Virus record (IMG/VR): IMGVR_UViG_3300042731_006720 | Span: 1-35,189 of that record | Source: a virus | Strand: one strand, 5' to 3' | Length of the DNA stretch: 35,189 bases | Part shown: positions 2,414 to 33,802 of the stretch, one piece after another | Layout: the number at the start of each line of letters is the position of its first letter | Numbering within the stretch: the stretch's first letter is position 1 | Made by a program: the position numbers and the translations under genes | Notes under the pieces: model-generated | What the model was told of the DNA's origin: nothing | The model's database searches: none | The model's input: only the letters and a program-made list of their open reading frames with translations

Positions 2414-2697
2414 CCCTGCCCCACGACGTCGCCTACTGGGACAAGCCCGAACAGGTCATCTGGGTGGACGTCGGACCCCGCCGCCTCCAGGGCATGGACT
2501 TCATGTGGGTCGGCGAGGACCGCTACGGCATGTGGAACGACCCCCGCAACCGGCACATCTACGACGGCCGGCAGGCGGTCGCCTGGACGTGGGACGGCGC
2601 CACCGAGGAGGAGGCGTGGCCCTGCGAGATTAGGGGCCGGGTCTACGAGGGGTTCATGCTGACCACAGAGCAGGCCGAGGCCGTGGGGATCCTCTGA
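2410..2697 (+). CDS. hypothetical protein, 95 aa, Trp-rich
   Basis: The start is ATG 2410, sharing ATGA with the stop of the LamG-like gene. An in-frame start 12 bases upstream would only add four residues and deepen the overlap. The protein is rich in Trp, Tyr and acidic residues (AYWDKPEQVIWVDVG, RYGMWNDPRNRHIYDG). It has no membrane segment and no Cys pair. It also overlaps the next gene (TGATG 2695-2699), so it is translationally coupled to both neighbours. I do not recognise a family. Its position between two appendage-like genes makes a small structural or assembly protein plausible. Confidence 0.65.
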   Translation: MTLPHDVAYWDKPEQVIWVDVGPRRLQGMDFMWVGEDRYGMWNDPRNRHIYDGRQAVAWTWDGATEEEAWPCEIRGRVYEGFMLTTEQAEAVGIL

Positions 2698-5186
2698 TGC
2701 CGACGCTTTACGCCACGACCACCGCCGTCGGCACGCCGGTCTCCCCCGCAGTCGCCGTCTACGAGCTGTCGGCGACCGCACCGGGAGCCACCACCCTCAC
2801 CGGCGAGAACACGCAGGACACCGCATACGGCACGATCGACAACGCCTGGGAGATCGCATACGACGGGTCATGGCAGGGAGGGTCGGAAACCTGGGACGTC
2901 GACCTCGACGTGACCGCCCTCAGCGGAACCGTCACCTACCGGTTCCGGCTCGCCCGATACAACAGCGGCGGCACCCTCCAGGCGAACAGCGCATGGTCGA
3001 CCGACTACACGACCACCGGCGTCAAGAACCTCAACACCACCTGGGACTCCGGGACCTGGGCGGCCGGCGACGTCCTCGTCATCGAGGTCGACCACTACCG
3101 CAGCGGAGGCCACGGCAACGTTTCGCTCGAGTTCGGCATCGGATCGGCCGACACCCTCGTCAACGCCCCCGACCCGCCCGCCAACAACTACCAGGAGTCG
3201 GAGACCGAGGCCGCCGGCGTCACCGACAGCACCACCTACACGAAAACCCGACCGGAGGCGGCGACCGACGACGCCGGCGTCACCGACAGCGTCGCCACAG
3301 ACCTCACCCTCGAGGCGGAGCTCCGCCTTTCGGGGTTCCGCATCGACGCCACCTACACGGCGGGAGGCCTCAGCGAAACAGCGACGGACGACGCCGGCGT
3401 CACGGACAGCACGAGCCACGCCACCGACGCCGCCCGAGCGGCCACCGACGACGCCGGGGTTACCGACGCGACGACGGCAGCGAAGGCCATCGCCGTTGCG
3501 ATCACCGACAGCGTCGGCGCCGCCGACACGACCGACCGGGCCCTAGCGGCCGCCAGGACCGCCACAGACGCCGCAGGAGCGGCCGACGCCACACAGGCCG
3601 CCAAGACAGCCGCCCAGGCCGTCAGCGACGCCGTAGGGGCCGCAGACGACACGACAGCAGCGACGGCAGCCGCCAGAACGGCCACGGACGCCGTAGGCGC
3701 AGCAGACAGCACCACGAGAGCCCACCAGGCGGCCAGGACGGCCACGGACGACGCCGGGGTGACGGACGCCACCGCCGACACCCTGGGCATCAGCGAAACC
3801 GTCACCGACGCCGCCGGCGTAGCAGACGCCACGGCGAGGGCCCACGCCGCAGCGCGGACGGCGACCGACCCGGCGGGAGCAACGGACGACACCACCGCCG
3901 CCAAGACCATCACCATCGCCATCACGGACGCCGCCGGGGCGACGGACCAGGCGAGCCCGGCGAAGGCGAGCCCGAGGACGGCGACGGACGCCGCCGGAGT
4001 CACCGACAGCACCAGCGAAGTCCTCAGCGCCAGCACAGCGGAGACCGCCACGGACCCGGCCGGCGTCACCGACACCACGAGCAGAGCCCACCAGGCCGCC
4101 CGCACGGCGACGGACGCCGCCGGCGCCACAGACACCGCAACCCCAGCGAAAACCGCCGCAGCGGCCGCCACAGACCCCGCAGGGGCGACGGACACGACGA
4201 CACGAGCCCACCAGGCGGCCAGGACAGCGACCGACCCCGCCGGGACGACCGACACGACGGCAGCAGCGAAGGCCAGCGCCAGGACGGCGACCGACCCGGC
4301 CGGCGTCGCCGACACGACAGCGACGGCGAGGACCATCGCCCGGACCATCACGGACCCCGCAGGCGCCACCGACGCCACGAGCCGGGCGCACACCGCGGAG
4401 CGGACCGCCACCGACGCCGCCGGCATCACCGACTCGACCGCCGAGCAACTCAGCGGAGCCGGCACGGAAACCATCAGCGACGCCGCCGGCGTCCAGGACT
4501 CGACCAGCAGGGCCCACACCGCAGCCCGGACGGCCACCGACCCCGCCGGCGCCACGGACACGGCGACGCCGGCCAAAACCATCCAGGTCGCCATCACCGA
4601 CCAGGCGGGAGCAACGGACACGACGACCCGGACGGCGCCGGCCACCCGCACCATCAGCGACACCGCCGGCATCGCGGACAGCACCGCCGAGCAGCAGAGC
4701 GGAGCCGGCACCGAGGTCATCACCGACCAGACGGGCGCCCAGGACACGACGACCCGCACCCACACCGCCGAACGGGCGGCGACCGACACGGCAGGAGCGA
4801 CCGACGAGGCGACCGCAGCCAAGACCATCACCGTCACCATCACCGACACGGCAGGAGCCGCCGACGACACGACCGCCGCCAAGACCATCACGGCGACGAT
4901 CACCGACGGAGCGGCCGCCACGGACACGACCGGCCGCACCGTCGCCTACCAGCGGACCGCCACCGACACGGCAGGAGCAGCGGACACCGCCAACCGGACC
5001 GTCGACTACACGAGGACCGCCACCGACCAAGCCGACGCCACCGACGCCACCACCTTCCTCCTCCTCGACGAGACCAACCTCCAGCCCATCGGCGTCGGCA
5101 TCCCCCAGCAGGGCGCCGCCGGCAGAACCGTCCACGGCGCTAGATTCCCAACAGGCATCCCCCAGCAAGGGAGGACAACACCATGA
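2697..5186 (+). CDS. repeat-rich fibre-like protein, 829 aa
   Basis: ATG 2697 overlaps the previous stop. Residues 1 to about 160 form a beta-sandwich-like domain (TTLTGENTQDTAYGTIDNAW, then SGTVTYRFRLARYNSGG). Residues 171 to about 786 are roughly 30 head-to-tail copies of a 20-residue repeat, consensus T-A-T-D-x-A-G-A-T-D-T-T-x-x-A-K-T-x-x-R. The tail carries two GIPQQG motifs in GVGIPQQGAAG and PTGIPQQGR. The repeats are almost all Thr, Ala, Asp and Gly with no Cys, as expected of an extended fibrous stalk. The role is inferred: a head or neck fibre with an N-terminal anchor. The reverse strand and another frame are also open here, only because the repeat is GC-rich. The last 46 bases hold the promoter for the next gene. 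Confidence 0.75.
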   Translation: MPTLYATTTAVGTPVSPAVAVYELSATAPGATTLTGENTQDTAYGTIDNAWEIAYDGSWQGGSETWDVDLDVTALSGTVTYRFRLARYNSGGTLQANSAWSTDYTTTGVKNLNTTWDSGTWAAGDVLVIEVDHYRSGGHGNVSLEFGIGSADTLVNAPDPPANNYQESETEAAGVTDSTTYTKTRPEAATDDAGVTDSVATDLTLEAELRLSGFRIDATYTAGGLSETATDDAGVTDSTSHATDAARAATDDAGVTDATTAAKAIAVAITDSVGAADTTDRALAAARTATDAAGAADATQAAKTAAQAVSDAVGAADDTTAATAAARTATDAVGAADSTTRAHQAARTATDDAGVTDATADTLGISETVTDAAGVADATARAHAAARTATDPAGATDDTTAAKTITIAITDAAGATDQASPAKASPRTATDAAGVTDSTSEVLSASTAETATDPAGVTDTTSRAHQAARTATDAAGATDTATPAKTAAAAATDPAGATDTTTRAHQAARTATDPAGTTDTTAAAKASARTATDPAGVADTTATARTIARTITDPAGATDATSRAHTAERTATDAAGITDSTAEQLSGAGTETISDAAGVQDSTSRAHTAARTATDPAGATDTATPAKTIQVAITDQAGATDTTTRTAPATRTISDTAGIADSTAEQQSGAGTEVITDQTGAQDTTTRTHTAERAATDTAGATDEATAAKTITVTITDTAGAADDTTAAKTITATITDGAAATDTTGRTVAYQRTATDTAGAADTANRTVDYTRTATDQADATDATTFLLLDETNLQPIGVGIPQQGAAGRTVHGARFPTGIPQQGRTTP
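3207..5055 (+). repeat. about 30 tandem 60-bp (20-aa) repeats inside the fibre-like gene
   Basis: Copies are in frame, mostly exactly 20 codons, with a few of 22 that end in SGAGTE or SASTAE. The fixed core is T-D-x-A-G-x-T-D. DNA copies have diverged at third positions, so this is an old, maintained protein repeat rather than a fresh duplication. Confidence 0.85.
5141..5152 (+). promoter_or_regulatory. TAnnnT promoter (TAGATT) inside the end of the fibre-like gene
   Basis: TAGATT at 5141-5146 lies 36 bases before ATG 5183, within the last codons of the repeat protein. The leader carries a strong AAGGGAGG (5167-5174). The local sequence is less GC-rich than its surroundings. Candidate only. 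Confidence 0.4.
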
Positions 5187-22575: not shown

Positions 22576-23472
22576 ATGAGCATCAGGCAGATCGGCGAAT
22601 GCTTCTACACGCCGACCCTCGCCCCCAACGAGCGCCTCGTCGCCATCGCCCTCGCGGACTTTGCCGACGACCACGGCCGGGCCTGGCCCAGCCTCAAGAC
22701 CATCGCGGAGAAAACCGGCTACAGCCGCCGGCAGACCCAGCGGATCGTCCACCAGCTCCAGGAGAAGGGCTACGTCGAGATCATCATCGAGGCGAACTGG
22801 AACAGGACGCCGCTCTACCAACTCCACCCCGAGAACCTCAAGACCAGGGAGGCGCCGACGGAGGCGCCGCTGCCCTTCCACGAGGACGCCCAAGAAGCCC
22901 TCGACAGACGGGGTGACAAGATGACACCCCCGGACACCGGCGACACCCCAGGGGATGACACCGGCGACCAGGAGGGGATGACACCCACGACCAGAGGGGA
23001 TGACACCGGCGACACCCAAACCGTCATAGAACCGTCAGATGAACCACCACCTGAACCGTCAGTCGCGCCGCTCCCAGCAATCGTCGAAGGCGAGGAGCAC
23101 ATCGAACGGTTCACCGACGCCACCGTTTCACGTGAAACACCACGACCCCGCAACCCCGGCTGGGACGCCCTCACAGACGTCTTCGGCTACGACCCCGAGG
23201 AGACCGGCGAACGAACCCTGTGGGGCCGCCTCGCAGCCCGAGCGAACGCCGAGCCCGACCCCGACGCCGCCGTCAAGGAACGAGCCCGCCGCATCATCGC
23301 CCAATGGGGCGTCGGGAAACTCACCCCCGCCAGCCTCAACAAATGGTGGCAACGCTTCGGCACGCCCCTCGGCGCCGCCACCGACCAAGATGCGGAAGCA
23401 ATGAGAGAAGCCCACGAGCGGGAACAACGACGCCAGCGGATGGGCGCAGCACAACTAGAGGAGGGGACATGA
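22576..23472 (+). CDS. replication initiator with winged helix; carries origin-like repeats, 298 aa
   Basis: ATG 22576 follows AGAGAAGGGATCCCC; an upstream GTG at 22516 has no ribosome site and lies inside the leader hairpin. Residues about 18-82 are a winged helix (ERLVAIALADFADDHGRAWP, TIAEKTGYSRRQTQRIVHQL, EKGYVEI), as in HTH_36 phage replication proteins. A Pro/Asp/Thr-rich linker (about 112-180) contains the iteron DNA. A helical C-terminal part (WGRLAARANAEPDPDAAVKE, then GVGKLTPASLNKWWQRFG) would bind a loader or helicase. The plan, with initiator gene containing its own origin, recalls lambda O. The next gene may be the loader. The family call is good; origin function is inferred. Confidence 0.75.
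   Translation: MSIRQIGECFYTPTLAPNERLVAIALADFADDHGRAWPSLKTIAEKTGYSRRQTQRIVHQLQEKGYVEIIIEANWNRTPLYQLHPENLKTREAPTEAPLPFHEDAQEALDRRGDKMTPPDTGDTPGDDTGDQEGMTPTTRGDDTGDTQTVIEPSDEPPPEPSVAPLPAIVEGEEHIERFTDATVSRETPRPRNPGWDALTDVFGYDPEETGERTLWGRLAARANAEPDPDAAVKERARRIIAQWGVGKLTPASLNKWWQRFGTPLGAATDQDAEAMREAHEREQRRQRMGAAQLEEGT
22951..23017 (+). repeat. iteron array: three abutting 22-23 bp direct repeats, candidate replication origin
   Basis: Copies begin at 22951, 22974 and 22996, each starting GGGGATGACACC and continuing with GGCGAC or CACGAC. Two degenerate copies precede them (GGGGTGACA at 22910-22918 and ATGACACC at 22921-22928), and GACACCGGCGAC recurs at 22933-22944. Spacing of 23 then 22 bases breaks the reading frame, so copies encode different peptides (GDDTGDQE versus GMTPTTR). 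That points to selection on DNA. Confidence 0.72.
23020..23061 (+). repeat. three ACCGTCA boxes beside the iterons
   Basis: ACCGTCA occurs at 23020-23026, 23031-23037 and 23055-23061, in a segment that is A/T-richer than the rest of the gene. It may be the easily melted part of the origin or a second set of binding boxes. Short boxes, so chance cannot be excluded. Confidence 0.45.
23125..23138 (+). promoter_or_regulatory. parS site (perfect 14-bp bacterial ParB-binding core)
   Basis: GTTTCACGTGAAAC is the palindromic core of the chromosomal parS bound by ParB/Spo0J in most bacteria. With its flanks it reads CGTTTCACGTGAAACA, 15 of 16 bases of the classical consensus. It encodes Val184-Ser-Arg-Glu-Thr188 with codons GTT, TCA and CGT, which the phage otherwise avoids. 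That suggests the DNA is what is kept. Confidence 0.75.
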
Positions 23473-24717: not shown

Positions 24718-24965
24718 CCACCGAACCGACAGAACGAGAGTGGCTAGAGGGCACCCACCCCGACGCCGAGGACGACGCCCGACCCCACCGAATCCCACCC
24801 TTCCCCGAACCCACCCCCGCCGAGGAGGAGGACCTCGCCAAGGCGAAAGCCCGAGCCCTCGCCGCCCTCCAAGAACTCACGGACCGCCTCAACGCCGCCC
24901 TAAAAGCCCAGGACGACACCACCCGAGTCACCATCACCATCCACACCAACGAGGAGCGCCTGTGA
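24714..24965 (+). CDS. hypothetical acidic/helical protein, 83 aa
   Basis: ATG 24714 shares ATGA. The N-terminal half is acidic and Pro-rich (EWLEGTHPDAEDDARPHRIP). The second half is a long helix (EEEDLAKAKARALAALQELT, then DRLNAALKAQD) and a final strand (TRVTITIHTNEERL). No motif is recognised. It couples the winged-helix gene to the methyltransferase gene, whose GTG overlaps its stop. Confidence 0.6.
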   Translation: MTTEPTEREWLEGTHPDAEDDARPHRIPPFPEPTPAEEEDLAKAKARALAALQELTDRLNAALKAQDDTTRVTITIHTNEERL

Positions 24966-26470
24966 GCCCGACCCCGATCGTCAGCACCCGCGAGGCCCCC
25001 ATCAAAGACCTCGCACCCCACCCGCAGAACCCGAACGAGCGGGAGACCGTCGAGGACATCCGCCGGAGCCTCCGCCGCTTCGGCCTCTACCGGACCATCG
25101 CCATCCAACAGTCCACCAACCACGTCATCGTCGGCAACCACACCTTCCTCGCCGCCCGCGAGGAGGGCTGGAAAACGATCAAGGTCAACGTCCTCGACGT
25201 CGACGACGAAACCGCCCTGGCGATCATGCTCGCCGACAACCGCCTCGCCGAGGCAGGAGCCCGAGACCCCGAAACCCTCGCCGACCTCCTCAAGCGCCTC
25301 GACGCCACCGACCTCGGCCTCGAGGGCACCGGCTACACCACCGCCGACCTAGCGGAACTCCTGGGCCCCGACCGGGCCGCCACCGGCACACCCCTCACCG
25401 AAAACTTCCTCGTCCCGCCCTTCACCGTCCTCGACAGCCGCCAGGGCTACTGGAAAGCCCGGAAACAGGAGTGGATGGCCCTCGGCATCCGCAGCGAACT
25501 CGGCCGGGACCAAAACCTCGCCATGGACAGCCTCAGCGGCCGGGTGCCCGACTACTACGACCAGAAGCGCACCATCGAGGCGTACCTGGGCCGCACCATC
25601 CCCAACGCCGAGTTCGAGGAGAAGTGGCTCCGCATGCCCGAGAACGAGAGCACCATGGGCGCCAGCGGCACCAGCATCTTCGACCCGGTCCTCTGCGAGG
25701 TCGCCTACCGCTGGTTCGCCCCCGAGGAGGGCCACGTCCTCGACCCCTTCGCCGGCGGCAGCGTCCGAGGCATCACCGCCGCCCTCACCGGCCGCACCTA
25801 CACCGGCATCGACCTCGCCGGCGACCAGCTCGCCGCCAACCGGGCGCAATGGCAGGCCATCGACGCCGCCCTCATCGACGCCGGCCCCCAACCCGAATGG
25901 ATACACGGCGCCAGCCCCGACGCCATCCCCGACGAGCCCGCAGACCTCATCTTCACCTGCCCGCCGTACTTCGACCTGGAGCGGTACAGCGACCACGAGG
26001 ACGACCTGAGCAACATGACCTGGGCCCAATTCAAGAAGGCCCACGACGCCGTCATCGAGGCCAGCCTCGCCCGCCTCCGGGAGAACCGCTTCGCCGTCTG
26101 GGTCATCGCCGACGTACGCGACAAGAAGGGCAACTACCGAGGCCTCGTCGCCGAAACCATCCGCAGCTTCCAACGCCACGGAGCCCACCTCTACAACGAC
26201 GCCGTCCTCGTCACCCCCACCGGCAGCCTCGCCGTCACCGCCGGCCGCCAATTCCGAGCCAGCCGGAAGCAAGGGAAACAACACCAGAACGTCCTCGTCT
26301 TCGGCAAACCCGGCGACGACCCCCTCGGCCAGGCCGTCCACGAGGCATTCACCGAGGCCTGGACCCTCGGCCGCAACCACCAGAACGTCCTCACCTTCGT
26401 CAAAGGCGACGGCAAGAAGGCCACCGGCGACCTCGGCGACGTCGCAGTCGATACCCTGCCAGAGCTATGA
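24962..26470 (+). CDS. ParB-like domain DNA methyltransferase, 502 aa
   Basis: GTG 24962 shares GTGA with the previous stop. Residues about 10-110 are a ParB/sulfiredoxin-type domain: DLAPHPQNPNERETVEDIRR, GLYRTIAIQQ, VIVGNHTFLAAREEGW. The C-terminal part is an amino-methyltransferase: motif I at Asp261 (VLDPFAGGSVRG) and motif IV at 332-336 (TCPPY, with Cys where Ser is usual). Between lies a probable target-recognition segment. The fusion is known in phages and would modify adenine or cytosine in phage DNA, guarding against restriction. It lacks the helix-turn-helix of segregation ParB, so parS binding is not expected from this protein. Confidence 0.78.
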   Translation: MSPTPIVSTREAPIKDLAPHPQNPNERETVEDIRRSLRRFGLYRTIAIQQSTNHVIVGNHTFLAAREEGWKTIKVNVLDVDDETALAIMLADNRLAEAGARDPETLADLLKRLDATDLGLEGTGYTTADLAELLGPDRAATGTPLTENFLVPPFTVLDSRQGYWKARKQEWMALGIRSELGRDQNLAMDSLSGRVPDYYDQKRTIEAYLGRTIPNAEFEEKWLRMPENESTMGASGTSIFDPVLCEVAYRWFAPEEGHVLDPFAGGSVRGITAALTGRTYTGIDLAGDQLAANRAQWQAIDAALIDAGPQPEWIHGASPDAIPDEPADLIFTCPPYFDLERYSDHEDDLSNMTWAQFKKAHDAVIEASLARLRENRFAVWVIADVRDKKGNYRGLVAETIRSFQRHGAHLYNDAVLVTPTGSLAVTAGRQFRASRKQGKQHQNVLVFGKPGDDPLGQAVHEAFTEAWTLGRNHQNVLTFVKGDGKKATGDLGDVAVDTLPEL

Positions 26471-28479: not shown

Positions 28480-30072
28480 ATGCCGGCCAGCCCGGAGCAG
28501 GTCGCCCGCCTAGAGGCAGACCCCCTCACCTGGAAACTCGCCCTCTTCGAGAAATACCAGACCGCCCACGACGGCGCCATCATCGCCGACGCCCCGCACC
28601 ACCGCCGCTTCTGGACCTGGCTGTGGGACATTCAACCGGGACGCCGGCCCCGCCCCTTCGTCGGCATCTGGCCACGAGGAGGAGCCAAGAGCACCAACGC
28701 CGAAATGGGCGCCATCGCCCTCGGCGCCCCACGCCAGCAGGAGGACGGCAGCCGCCGGCCCACCCGCAACTACGCCTGGTACGTCAGCGAGGTCCAGGAC
28801 CAGGCCGACGACCACGTCGAGACCGTCGGCGCCATGCTCGAGAGCAGCGAACTCGCCACCTTCTACCCCGACCTCGCCCGCCGAGCCGTCAACAAGTACG
28901 GCAGCAGCCGAGGCTGGCGCCGCAACCGCCTGAGGACCGCAGCCGGCTTCACCGTCGACGCCGTAGGCCTCGACACCGCCGCCCGAGGCATCAAGATCGA
29001 GGAGGCCCGCCCCGGCCTCATCGTCTTCGACGACATCGACGGCCGCCACGACAGCCAGGCGACCACCGACAAGAAGCGGGAGACCATCACCCAAACCCTC
29101 ATCCCCGCCGGCAGCGCAGACCGGGCCCTCATGTTCATCCAGAACCTCGTCCACCCCACCAGCATCTTCGCCCAGCTCGCCGACGGCAGCGCCGGCTTCC
29201 TCACCCAGGCGCACATCAGCGGCCCCGTCCCCGCCGTCGAGGACCTCACCTACGCCGCCAAGCGGGACCGCATCGTCATCACAAGCGGCACCCCGACCTG
29301 GGCCGGCCAGGACCTCGACACCTGCCAGGCGGACATCGACGAGATCGGCATCACCGCATTCCTCCAAGAAGCCCAACACGAAGTCGAGGCGCCACCCGGC
29401 GGCATGTTCGACCACCTCGACCTCGCCGCCCTCCGCATCGACTGGGACGACGTGCCGCCCCTCGACCGGGTCGTCGTTTGGGTGGACCCGGCCGTCACCA
29501 AGAAAGACCAGAGCGACGCCCACGCCATCCAGGCCGACGGCATCGCCGGCGACACGATCTACCGCCTCCACTCGTGGGAGCAGAGGAGCACACCCCTCGC
29601 CGCCATCAAGCGGGCCATCCAGACCGCCGCCCGCTACGGCGCCACCTACGTCGGCGTCGAAACCGACCAGGGAGGAGACACCTGGCGCAGCACCTTCCGC
29701 GAGGCCCGCACCGCCGCCGCCGAGGAGGCCACCGGCGACGACCGGGACCGCATCCGCCGCATCCGCTTCGCCGAGGCCAAGGCCGGCCAGGGCCAAGACC
29801 CCAAGACCCACCGAGCGAGCATCATGCTCGCCGACTACGAGAAGCCCGGCCGCCGCATCCGCCACGTCACCGGCACCCACCTCGTCCTCGAGAAAGCCCT
29901 CGCCCGCTTCCCCAAAACCCACCCCCTCGACCTGGTGGACGCCGGCTACTGGGCGTGGAACGACCTGAGGAACAAGCCCGAGATCGCCGGCTACGCCGCC
30001 GACATAGAAGCCGACCTCGCCGACGAGCCCAGCGACCCCTACGCCGCCGACCGGGTCTCCCGCATCTGGTAG
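28480..30072 (+). CDS. terL: terminase large subunit, 530 aa
   Basis: ATG 28480 is chosen because AAGGA lies nine bases upstream; an in-frame GTG at 28438 would overlap the previous gene by 37 bases. The ATPase domain has Walker A PRGGAKST (residues 65-72) and Walker B LIVFDD with Asp184/Asp185. The C-terminal nuclease domain has VVWVDPAV (Asp336), GVETDQGG (Glu394, Asp396) and DLVDAGYW (Asp487). Length and order are normal for TerL, the motor that pumps DNA into the procapsid and cuts it. Fold-specific hints about pac or cos packaging cannot be drawn here. Behind its stop comes the first promoter cassette. Confidence 0.92.
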   Translation: MPASPEQVARLEADPLTWKLALFEKYQTAHDGAIIADAPHHRRFWTWLWDIQPGRRPRPFVGIWPRGGAKSTNAEMGAIALGAPRQQEDGSRRPTRNYAWYVSEVQDQADDHVETVGAMLESSELATFYPDLARRAVNKYGSSRGWRRNRLRTAAGFTVDAVGLDTAARGIKIEEARPGLIVFDDIDGRHDSQATTDKKRETITQTLIPAGSADRALMFIQNLVHPTSIFAQLADGSAGFLTQAHISGPVPAVEDLTYAAKRDRIVITSGTPTWAGQDLDTCQADIDEIGITAFLQEAQHEVEAPPGGMFDHLDLAALRIDWDDVPPLDRVVVWVDPAVTKKDQSDAHAIQADGIAGDTIYRLHSWEQRSTPLAAIKRAIQTAARYGATYVGVETDQGGDTWRSTFREARTAAAEEATGDDRDRIRRIRFAEAKAGQGQDPKTHRASIMLADYEKPGRRIRHVTGTHLVLEKALARFPKTHPLDLVDAGYWAWNDLRNKPEIAGYAADIEADLADEPSDPYAADRVSRIW

Positions 30073-30138
30073 GAAACCGCCCCAAACCCCTTGACACCAG
30101 GCCGGGGCCCCGGCATAGTAGAGGGTATGAGAGACACC
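30070..30138 (+). promoter_or_regulatory. promoter cassette copy 1 (TTGACACC class, leaderless)
   Basis: Starts in the TerL stop: TAGGAAACCGCCCC and AAACCCC, then TTGACA 30091-30096, 17 bases, CATAGT 30114-30119, seven bases, ATG 30127, and the shared first codons ATGAGAGACACC to 30138. The spacer contains the palindrome GCCGGGGCCCCGGC (30101-30114). Aligns base by base with 31393-31461 and 33065-33133. Confidence 0.85.
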
Positions 30139-30495
30139 AACCTGCGCTTCACCCTGACCACCGAACACGGCACCTGGGAAGTCGAGCAAGTCAAGCCCGC
30201 CGACCCGACCGCCACCCACTGCGAGCTTTGCGGCCGGCCCAACCCCGGCAACAACGACGGCTACACCGCCTGCTGCGACGAGCTTTTCTGCGACGGCGGC
30301 ACCTGCGTCTGGCTCAAGAGCACAGACCGGAACGGCCACACCAGCACCGAGCACCACCGGAGCCGAGCCGAGGCCATCGACCAGAACACCCCAACCGCCT
30401 ACCGCGCCGAGACCGACCCCTGCGAGAAGGGCACACCCGGATGCAGCGTCCGCCACAGCGCCATCAGCATCGAGACCAACTGCCAGACCTGGTAG
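30127..30495 (+). CDS. Cys-rich zinc-binding protein, 122 aa, island operon 1
   Basis: ATG 30127 lies seven bases behind CATAGT; an upstream GTG at 30091 lies in the promoter and is rejected. The protein opens MRDT like the other two first genes of the island. Nine Cys: Cys32-x-x-Cys35 (HCELCGRPN), Cys49/50, Cys55, Cys60 (ACCDELFCDGGTC), then 99, 106 and 119. Two zinc sites are likely in the middle. Short strands surround them. Function unknown. An early or constant expression is expected from the consensus-like promoter. Confidence 0.68.
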   Translation: MRDTNLRFTLTTEHGTWEVEQVKPADPTATHCELCGRPNPGNNDGYTACCDELFCDGGTCVWLKSTDRNGHTSTEHHRSRAEAIDQNTPTAYRAETDPCEKGTPGCSVRHSAISIETNCQTW

Positions 30496-31156: not shown

Positions 31157-31395
31157 GCGACCACCTCCACGACGAGCCCGAGAACACGACCAGCGGCGAA
31201 ACCGGCTGGGCCGTCTACCGCGACGGCACCCAGCGCAGCCCGAGCGGCATGACCTACGGCGAGGCCTTCGCCTGGCTTCTCCGAGCCCAGGGCCAGAGCG
31301 TCCACCACGCCACCACCCACGAGGGCTGGGAACTCCGGGAGCAGCCCTACTGCCAGCCGCACGACATCTACGACTGCCCCTTCGCCCACGGCTAA
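31153..31395 (+). CDS. hypothetical small protein with C-terminal Cys/His, 80 aa
   Basis: ATG 31153 shares ATGA. An acidic N-terminus (SDHLHDEPENTTSGE) precedes a small folded segment (GWAVYRDGTQRSPSGMTYGE, AFAWLLRAQGQSVHHA). Cys67, His70, Cys75 and His79 (YCQPHDIYDCPFAHG) would fit a metal site. It is the last gene of island operon 1. Its TAA stop is the first codon of promoter cassette copy 2. Not recognised. Confidence 0.58.
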   Translation: MSDHLHDEPENTTSGETGWAVYRDGTQRSPSGMTYGEAFAWLLRAQGQSVHHATTHEGWELREQPYCQPHDIYDCPFAHG

Positions 31396-31461
31396 GAAAC
31401 CGCACCAAACCCCTTGACACCCGAGGGTGGAGGCGGCATAGTTGACCGTATGAGAGACACC
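31393..31461 (+). promoter_or_regulatory. promoter cassette copy 2 (TTGACACC class, leaderless)
   Basis: TAAGAAACCGCACCAAACCCC, then TTGACA 31414-31419, 17 bases, CATAGT 31437-31442, seven bases, ATG 31450 and shared codons to 31461. Nearly identical to copy 1 outside the spacer, and it again begins in a stop codon. Confidence 0.85.
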
Positions 31462-31641
31462 ACACCAACGACCACCACGGTCACCTACCGCACCATCTAC
31501 ATGCCGGCCAACGCCGAGCCCCGCACCAAGACCTTCAAAGACCTGGGCCCGAGGATCGACAGCCTCACCCTCGCCCGCAACTGGATGCAGCGGAACGGCA
31601 TCGTCGCCATCACCATCGACACGACAGCAGCAGCCGAATGA
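31450..31641 (+). CDS. hypothetical small protein, 63 aa, first gene of island operon 2
   Basis: ATG 31450 is seven bases behind CATAGT with no room for a ribosome site. The MRDT start is shared with the genes at 30127 and 33122. A Thr-rich segment (TPTTTTVTYRTIYMPANAEP) leads into a helix (LARNWMQRNG) and a final strand (IVAITIDTTAAAE). The layout beta-alpha-beta is compatible with a small compact domain. No Cys. Family not recognised; coupled by ATGA to the next gene. Confidence 0.62.
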   Translation: MRDTTPTTTTVTYRTIYMPANAEPRTKTFKDLGPRIDSLTLARNWMQRNGIVAITIDTTAAAE

Positions 31642-32657: not shown

Positions 32658-33067
32658 GCGACCAGCGACACTGGATCATGAACCCCCGAGGACACCGCGC
32701 CTTCGCCAACGAGATGAACCCCCACCAGACCGGCGACACCGTCGACACCCCCATGGGCGAGGCCGTCTTCCTCAAGCTGCCCGACCCGCAGGGAGGAGCC
32801 TGGTACTGCGACATCTGCAGCAGCCAGATCCTCACCGCCTGGGGCGACGAGCCGATGCCCGTGCCGGCCGACGGCAGCTACGCCCTCTGCGGCCCCTGCC
32901 GGGAGCGGATCGAGCAGGGCCCGAGGTTCAGCGACCGCACCGGCGAACCCATCCCCAACACCCAGGCGGGCCCCTGGCCGCCCGCCGGCTGCAACTGCCC
33001 GCCATGCCAGAACACCACCCAGGCGTGGGGCCGGCAGCTCGTCAACGCCTACCACCTCACCCCCTAG
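32654..33067 (+). CDS. protein with several CxxC motifs, 137 aa
   Basis: ATG 32654 shares ATGA. A beta-rich first part (QTGDTVDTPMGEAVFLKLPD) is followed by zinc-type pairs Cys52-x-x-Cys55 (YCDICSSQIL) and Cys79-x-x-Cys82 (LCGPCRERIE), which together make a complete four-Cys site. The C-terminus adds Cys113, Cys115 and Cys118 (CNCPPCQNTT). The four-Cys arrangement fits a zinc ribbon. It is the last gene of island operon 2. Its TAG stop opens promoter cassette copy 3. Not recognised. Confidence 0.65.
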   Translation: MSDQRHWIMNPRGHRAFANEMNPHQTGDTVDTPMGEAVFLKLPDPQGGAWYCDICSSQILTAWGDEPMPVPADGSYALCGPCRERIEQGPRFSDRTGEPIPNTQAGPWPPAGCNCPPCQNTTQAWGRQLVNAYHLTP

Positions 33068-33133
33068 GAAACTGCCGCAACCCCCTTGACACCCGAGGAG
33101 GGTTGCGGCAATGTTGGAGCCATGAGAGACACC
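33065..33133 (+). promoter_or_regulatory. promoter cassette copy 3 (TTGACACC class, leaderless)
   Basis: TAGGAAACTGCCGCAACCCCC, then TTGACA 33086-33091, 17 bases, CAATGT 33109-33114, seven bases, ATG 33122 and shared codons to 33133. The -10 differs by two bases from the other copies, so it may be the weakest of the three. Confidence 0.82.
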
Positions 33134-33802
33134 GACATCAAGGCCTACCACCTGGACCCCGACAAGGACGGCGCCAGCTTCGACGACCCGAAATACGACC
33201 CCGAGAACGCCGAGGCCCTCGCCGCCGAACGGCAGGCCGACCTCGACGCCAAGCGGGAACTGGCCGCCTGGCTCAACCAGCAGAACTGGAGCGAATTCGC
33301 CAAGAGCCTCGCCGAGCAGTTCTACCGCAAGGGCATGGCCGCCGACAGCCTGAGCCCAAAACAGTGGGCCGCCGCCGAGAGCATGAAGGCGAAATGCGAC
33401 GCCAAGGCCGCCGAGCGGGCCGCCCGCAAGGAAGCCGAGGCGAGCCGCCCCGAGACCGGCATCGACCTGCGGACCATCCCCAGCGGCTACTACGCCGTCC
33501 CCGACGGCGACACCCGCCTCAAGGTCCGGGTCAACCACGTCGACAAGGGCCGGTGGGCCGGCTACACCTTCGTCGACGACGGAGCCGAATACGGCAACCG
33601 CCGCAACTACGGCCGCCAAGCCCCCGACGGCACCTACCAAGGAGACATCGCAGACGCCCTCAAGGCCATCGTCGCCGACCCGACAGCAGCAGCAGCCCGC
33701 TACGGCCACATCACCGGACGCTGCGGCATCTGCAACCGCCAGCTCGAGGACGAGGCCAGCGTGGCGAGGGGAATCGGCCCCATCTGCGCCAAGAACCTCT
33801 AG
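33122..33802 (+). CDS. protein with C-terminal DUF6011-like zinc motif, 226 aa
   Basis: ATG 33122 lies seven bases behind the -10 and opens MRDT. A helical charged region (residues 25-110, with runs of Ala, Glu, Lys) precedes a beta segment (GYYAVPDGDTRLKVRVNHVD, RWAGYTFVDDGAEY). The C-terminus RCGICNRQLEDEASVARGIG-PICAKNL carries Cys201, Cys204 and Cys222 and matches the short zinc domain DUF6011, whose hallmark is E-S/A-V-A-R-G-I-G-P-x-C. That domain occurs at the end of many phage and plasmid proteins; its role is not known. It is the only gene between cassette copy 3 and the terminator. Confidence 0.75.
   Translation: MRDTDIKAYHLDPDKDGASFDDPKYDPENAEALAAERQADLDAKRELAAWLNQQNWSEFAKSLAEQFYRKGMAADSLSPKQWAAAESMKAKCDAKAAERAARKEAEASRPETGIDLRTIPSGYYAVPDGDTRLKVRVNHVDKGRWAGYTFVDDGAEYGNRRNYGRQAPDGTYQGDIADALKAIVADPTAAAARYGHITGRCGICNRQLEDEASVARGIGPICAKNL

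Follow-up and report, generated by a model that had tools for sequence, protein, structure and literature searches.

Several unrelated groups of phages carry the exact 14-bp core of chromosomal-type parS (GTTTCACGTGAAAC) as an orphan element, with 1 to 7 copies per genome distributed over genes and intergenic gaps. Judging from codon choice, controls and placement, these sites are quite likely maintained by selection on the phage DNA, where the ParB protein of the host would load in cis during infection.

The window analysed here is a stretch of 35,189 nucleotides (IMG/VR record IMGVR_UViG_3300042731_006720) from a tailed phage, with terminase, portal and tape measure genes, for which an actinobacterial host is plausible. 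It represents 35 kb of a genome of apparently ~41 kb, as judged from the closest relative found in IMG/VR (G001, IMGVR_UViG_3300046482_000204, 42.3 kb). The window's phage is also represented by a contig of 8.6 kb, which adds 1.4 kb and no further site; ~4.5 kb lie beyond view.

The parS core of the window

The motif and the features around it are as follows.

22576..23472, + strand: O-like replication initiator gene containing the site (phrog_391, E 1e-20; HTH_36)
22920..23061, + strand: iteron-like direct repeats (GGGGATGACACCGGCGAC x3 and ACCGTCA x3), 64-205 bases upstream of the site
23125..23138, no strand assigned: parS core of chromosomal type without mismatch, GTTTCACGTGAAAC; codons GTT TCA CGT GAA AC(A), read as VSRET
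24740..26470, + strand: open frame with a ParB_N domain fused to an N6/N4 DNA methyltransferase, 1.6 kb downstream of the site

The window scan finds the core at 23125-23138 with 0 mismatches, and together with its flanks (c...a) the site agrees with 15 of the 16 bases of TGTTTCACGTGAAACA; the flanks differ between phage copies. No second site with two or fewer mismatches occurs elsewhere in the window. The expected count of the 14-mer in the window is 1.2e-5 from base composition and 1.5e-5 from an order-2 Markov model, and the in-frame expectation from the codon usage of the window is 1e-7. Frame 1 of the motif reads VSRET and frame 2 contains a stop. Three of its codons are rare in the window, namely GTT (22 of 437 Val), TCA (32 of 442 Ser) and CGT (7 of 573 Arg), and the probability of exactly these codons given the peptide VSRET is ~1e-5. 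A sequence-only reading of this DNA had described a perfect palindrome matching 15 of 16 consensus bases, improbable by chance and written in codons that the phage avoids; the rescan and the counts confirm each of these points.

The site falls in the linker between the N-terminal HTH_36 domain and the C-terminal region of the O-like initiator, a segment that is not conserved, including in G001. The iteron-like repeats are also found in G001 and, by analogy with lambda O, probably represent an origin inside the initiator gene. An O-like N-terminal domain and internal iterons are both present in the gene, and the origin function is putative. The downstream ParB_N-methyltransferase fusion scores 22.7 bits against TIGR00180, which is under the cut-off, and no ParB DNA-binding (helix-turn-helix) domain was recognised in it. 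A ParB-CTPase fold fused to a DNA methyltransferase has lately been described as a common type in phages (PMC12704722). The fusion in the window is not a segregation ParB, and it is not thought to read the site.

Other parts of the window also contain repeats. Three 70-nt direct repeats (30070-30139, 31393-31462 and 33065-33134) have a promoter-like core, TTGACA...CATAGT, and a start, ATGAGAGACACC, and form a repeated promoter and start cassette ahead of three genes. An 829-aa protein encoded at 2697-5186 consists almost entirely of TDxAGxTDxT repeats.

Enrichment and codon choice in viral sequences

The IMG/VR search looked for the motif in frame, flanked on either side by four codons that end in G or C. 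This pattern retrieves 108 stretches with the motif in GC-rich context, compared with 1 stretch for the same codons in permuted order and 5 stretches on 3 contigs for a composition-matched control palindrome built around the same CACGTG. When extended to GGTATCACGTGATACC, this palindrome (GTATCACGTGATAC) turns out to be a dispersed repeat in its own right, occurring 13 times in the retrieved portions of a 48.8-kb viral contig (IMGVR_UViG_3300022719_000026, L316-L318) and in 2-3 copies on two other contigs (L319, L320). Because its five stretches are thus a genuine dispersed repeat, the chance level is ~1. Between two and five copies of parS occur in 11 of 49 records (reversed control, 0), one of the 11 being a duplicate contig of G001.

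Among the open reading frames with the motif are those for terminases, portals, capsid proteins, proteases, tape measures, primases, an exonuclease, a scaffold protein and a ParB-like protein. Because hallmark phage genes from many families are among the carriers, host contamination is not the explanation. That the sites arose by chance, or belong to host sequence wrongly binned as viral, is accordingly so improbable as to be negligible. The sequence-only reading did have many motifs to pick from, and part of the IMG/VR matches, L040, L103 and L314 for example, may come from the origin region of a host. However, the expectation in the window (<=1e-5), the controls, the hallmark genes and the complete genomes of cultured phages all speak against this explanation, and for the window and the cultured phages it is already refuted.

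Some viral contigs contain clustered copies. Three lie 45 bases apart in one open reading frame (L227:4750-4853), six fall within 2.9 kb of one contig (L314) and five within 2 kb of another (L212); the latter two contigs may be host origin regions. Two copies in another genome (G012, 23282 and 25666, L505) are embedded in extended inverted repeats, GGCCCCCGTTTCACGTGAAACGGGGGCC, similar to the stems of terminators. An RNA hairpin or terminator was considered as a general explanation and rejected, because pairing outside the 14-mer is not a consistent feature of the sites.

A terminase family (L357-L402) was fetched regardless of the motif and allows codon choice to be compared directly. Members with the peptide GIVSRET use GTT in 19 of 23 cases and GAA in 22 of 23, among neighbouring codons with a GC3 of 0.81. 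In homologues with another residue in place of the serine, where the motif is impossible, the corresponding fractions are 4/14 and 6/14. The contrast gives p values of 0.002 (GTT) and 0.0006 (GAA), which are indicative only because the rows of the family are related. Many members are one base short of parS, and the site therefore seems to come and go within the family. The VSRET codons of this family also include palindrome variants such as GTTTCCCGGGAAAC (L400) alongside the one-base variants of parS.

Selection for the peptide VSRET is ruled out by the codon permutation together with the terminase codons. The earlier proposal that the DNA, not the peptide, is selected is thus upheld by the codon-permuted control (1 against 108) and by terminase codons that follow the DNA motif, and the view that the site is kept for its DNA is supported by codon usage and by the conservation of orthologous copies described below.

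Placement in relatives and cultured phages

Members of the window's clade were sought by terminase similarity, blind to the motif. The clade consists of three distinct phages, all of which have exact copies (one in the window, two in G001 and two in a third phage, G035), in differing genes and each read as VSRET. The initiator of G001 is 69% identical to that of the window, and its gene contains neither the motif nor the VSRET peptide. One of the G001 copies lies in an 814-aa capsid and protease protein and the other in a 1305-aa repeat-rich virion protein. Both copies in G035 fall between repeat units of a virion protein, as in the repeat-rich protein of G001. The motif is also absent from 79 other O-like gene loci, which are distant relatives. 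Searches for close named relatives of the window phage, and two genome scans for prophage relatives with named hosts, found none.

G001 lacks the motif in its initiator gene but carries it twice, without mismatch, elsewhere in its genome; the placement within the initiator of the window is thus incidental. The idea of a site kept at a fixed place in O-like genes was abandoned on the evidence of G001 and the 79 distant loci. The same evidence does not support the link to the replication gene or to control of the initiator in the sequence-only reading, the G001 copies being in capsid-protease and virion genes instead. That reading had also pointed to relatives that keep the peptide and lose the motif as the informative comparison. 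This comparison is inapplicable to G001, since the peptide is gone there too; in the terminase family, where it can be made, the codons track the DNA motif.

Cultured carriers were reached by two routes: Korravirus (Arthrobacter cluster AK) by portal similarity, and Arthrobacter sulfureus phages through a neighbouring gene of a five-site metagenomic phage. Whole records contain 7 copies in Emotion and 6 each in VroomVroom and JasmineDragon. Among Korravirus, Lucy has 3 copies, PinkFriday, Kittykat and HunterDalle have 2 each, and Litotes and Wayne have 1 each. The motif is absent from 17 of the 26 sampled named phages (including Liebevirus, Yangvirus, Microbacterium, Gordonia and Mycobacterium phages), and is therefore a trait of some lineages. 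The reversed control is absent from all sampled named phages. Over 17 genomes, 105 composition-matched palindromes give 0 exact matches, and the parS counts are nearly all-or-nothing: the motif is exact or nearly absent, with few forms having one or two mismatches. At orthologous sites the 14-mer is 100% identical, and identity of the 60-base flanks goes down to 40-98%.

The sites of Emotion are found in both coding and intergenic sequence, and 4 of the 7 are intergenic or overlap a start codon. This placement would suit an operator, if a regulator encoded by the phages had come to use the parS sequence by coincidence, and cluster EG Microbacterium phages likewise have short dispersed inverted repeats, several per genome, upstream of genes (PMC7302621). 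The cluster EG palindrome differs, however, in sequence (GATCAACCNNGGTTGATC), and it lies upstream of right-end genes, where it is presumed to be regulatory. The exact same parS 14-mer occurs in unrelated phages, within virion coding regions distant from starts, and no shared regulator is known. An operator function is therefore quite unlikely.

Host ParB as the candidate reader

No protein other than chromosomal ParB is known to recognise GTTTCACGTGAAAC. ParB is a CTP-dependent sliding clamp. For Streptomyces coelicolor ParB the chromosomal parS is reported as a 14-bp site (PMC13245405), and in mycobacteria the same palindrome is described as a 16-bp element near oriC (PMC2346475). The chromosomal ParABS systems of Bacillus subtilis, Streptomyces, Mycobacterium and Corynebacterium have the same 14-bp core in several copies, both coding and intergenic, whereas the phage sites are scattered on phage genomes with no parA or parB nearby.

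Neither a canonical ParB (TIGR00180, under cut-off) nor ParA (PF13614) is present in the window, G001 or G035, in keeping with the earlier statement that the window has no segregation-type ParB or ParA. Among 50 carriers, one has a ParB above the TIGR00180 cut-off and one a ParA (PF13614), and none of the 9 cultured carriers has a canonical ParB. A ParB of the phage's own is thus rejected as the reader for most carriers, and the window offers only the ParB_N-methyltransferase fusion. Since the site is of the host chromosomal type and the phages have no segregation ParA or ParB, the host ParB is the likely partner, and the phages probably borrow this segregation protein. The host-type site and the missing ParAB of the sequence-only proposal stand; we infer that ParB binds the phage sites and that the phage benefits.

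That reading had also suggested segregation as a plasmid-like prophage, which would be partitioned by the host ParABS. The window has no integrase and no ParAB of its own, as such an element might, but it also has no recognised repressor or plasmid-type replication protein, and published descriptions call the Korravirus carriers lytic (PMC5513430, PMC11468179). The integrase search covered the tyrosine type alone (PF00589) and only the available part of the window's phage, and it finds none in the 12 clade and cultured carriers. With no tyrosine integrase and lytic Korravirus carriers, partition of a prophage is very unlikely as a general reason for the sites.

The following sequence of events is proposed as the most likely. 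The chromosomal ParB clamp of the host would load at the phage parS during infection and spread across neighbouring phage DNA, which would thereby take on the identity of the host origin region. Possible outcomes are contact with ParA and a polar or nucleoid scaffold, loading of SMC, or a coat of clamps that alters the position, compaction or protection of the DNA. In Corynebacterium glutamicum, ParB loads SMC at parS, and plasmids are acted on by the condensin MksBEFG (PMC7083940). Condensins are thus obvious candidates. We lean slightly towards the fuller reading that unrelated phage groups, at least some of them lytic, load the host ParB clamp and perhaps SMC through orphan parS, as a cis-acting element that would position, compact or shield phage DNA in infection.

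The main rival is titration, in which replicating phage genomes act as decoys that pull ParB off the host centromere and upset segregation and SMC loading. Such a role would fit the phages, probably lytic, whose genomes have as many as 7 sites spread over them, and it would fit the free placement of the sites. Most carriers, however, have 1 or 2 sites, a weak sink until late infection, and titration is rather unlikely. Loading of the clamp in cis is favoured, because one or two freely placed sites are usually enough, as expected of clamp loading and unlike operators.

ParB loading on phage DNA is feasible, since in an engineered lambda with parS, CFP-ParB gathers on the phage genome as it replicates in lytic growth (PMC13190303). 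Lambda-parS is an artificial imaging tool, whereas the phage parS described here is a natural trait. Centromere-like sites likewise occur on the DNA of actinophages with extrachromosomal prophages, the mycobacteriophages RedRock and Miko (PMC7157519). RedRock and Miko encode ParA and ParB themselves and have arrays of 8-bp direct repeats, in contrast to the host-type palindromes without ParAB of the carriers here. In the open-access papers searched, no natural phage was described as having host-type parS, an absence that does not prove novelty.

Research has so far treated ParB and parS as belonging to the chromosome alone. Should phages that lack ParAB keep an exact parS by selection, ParB and SMC would be host factors in infection, and bacterial viruses would have a general route to exploit the segregation machinery of their hosts. 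Positioning or shielding of phage DNA in actinobacteria could then be tested at once with cultured phages. The phage copies may also enter counts of chromosomal parS and ParB ChIP data, where they call for some caution.
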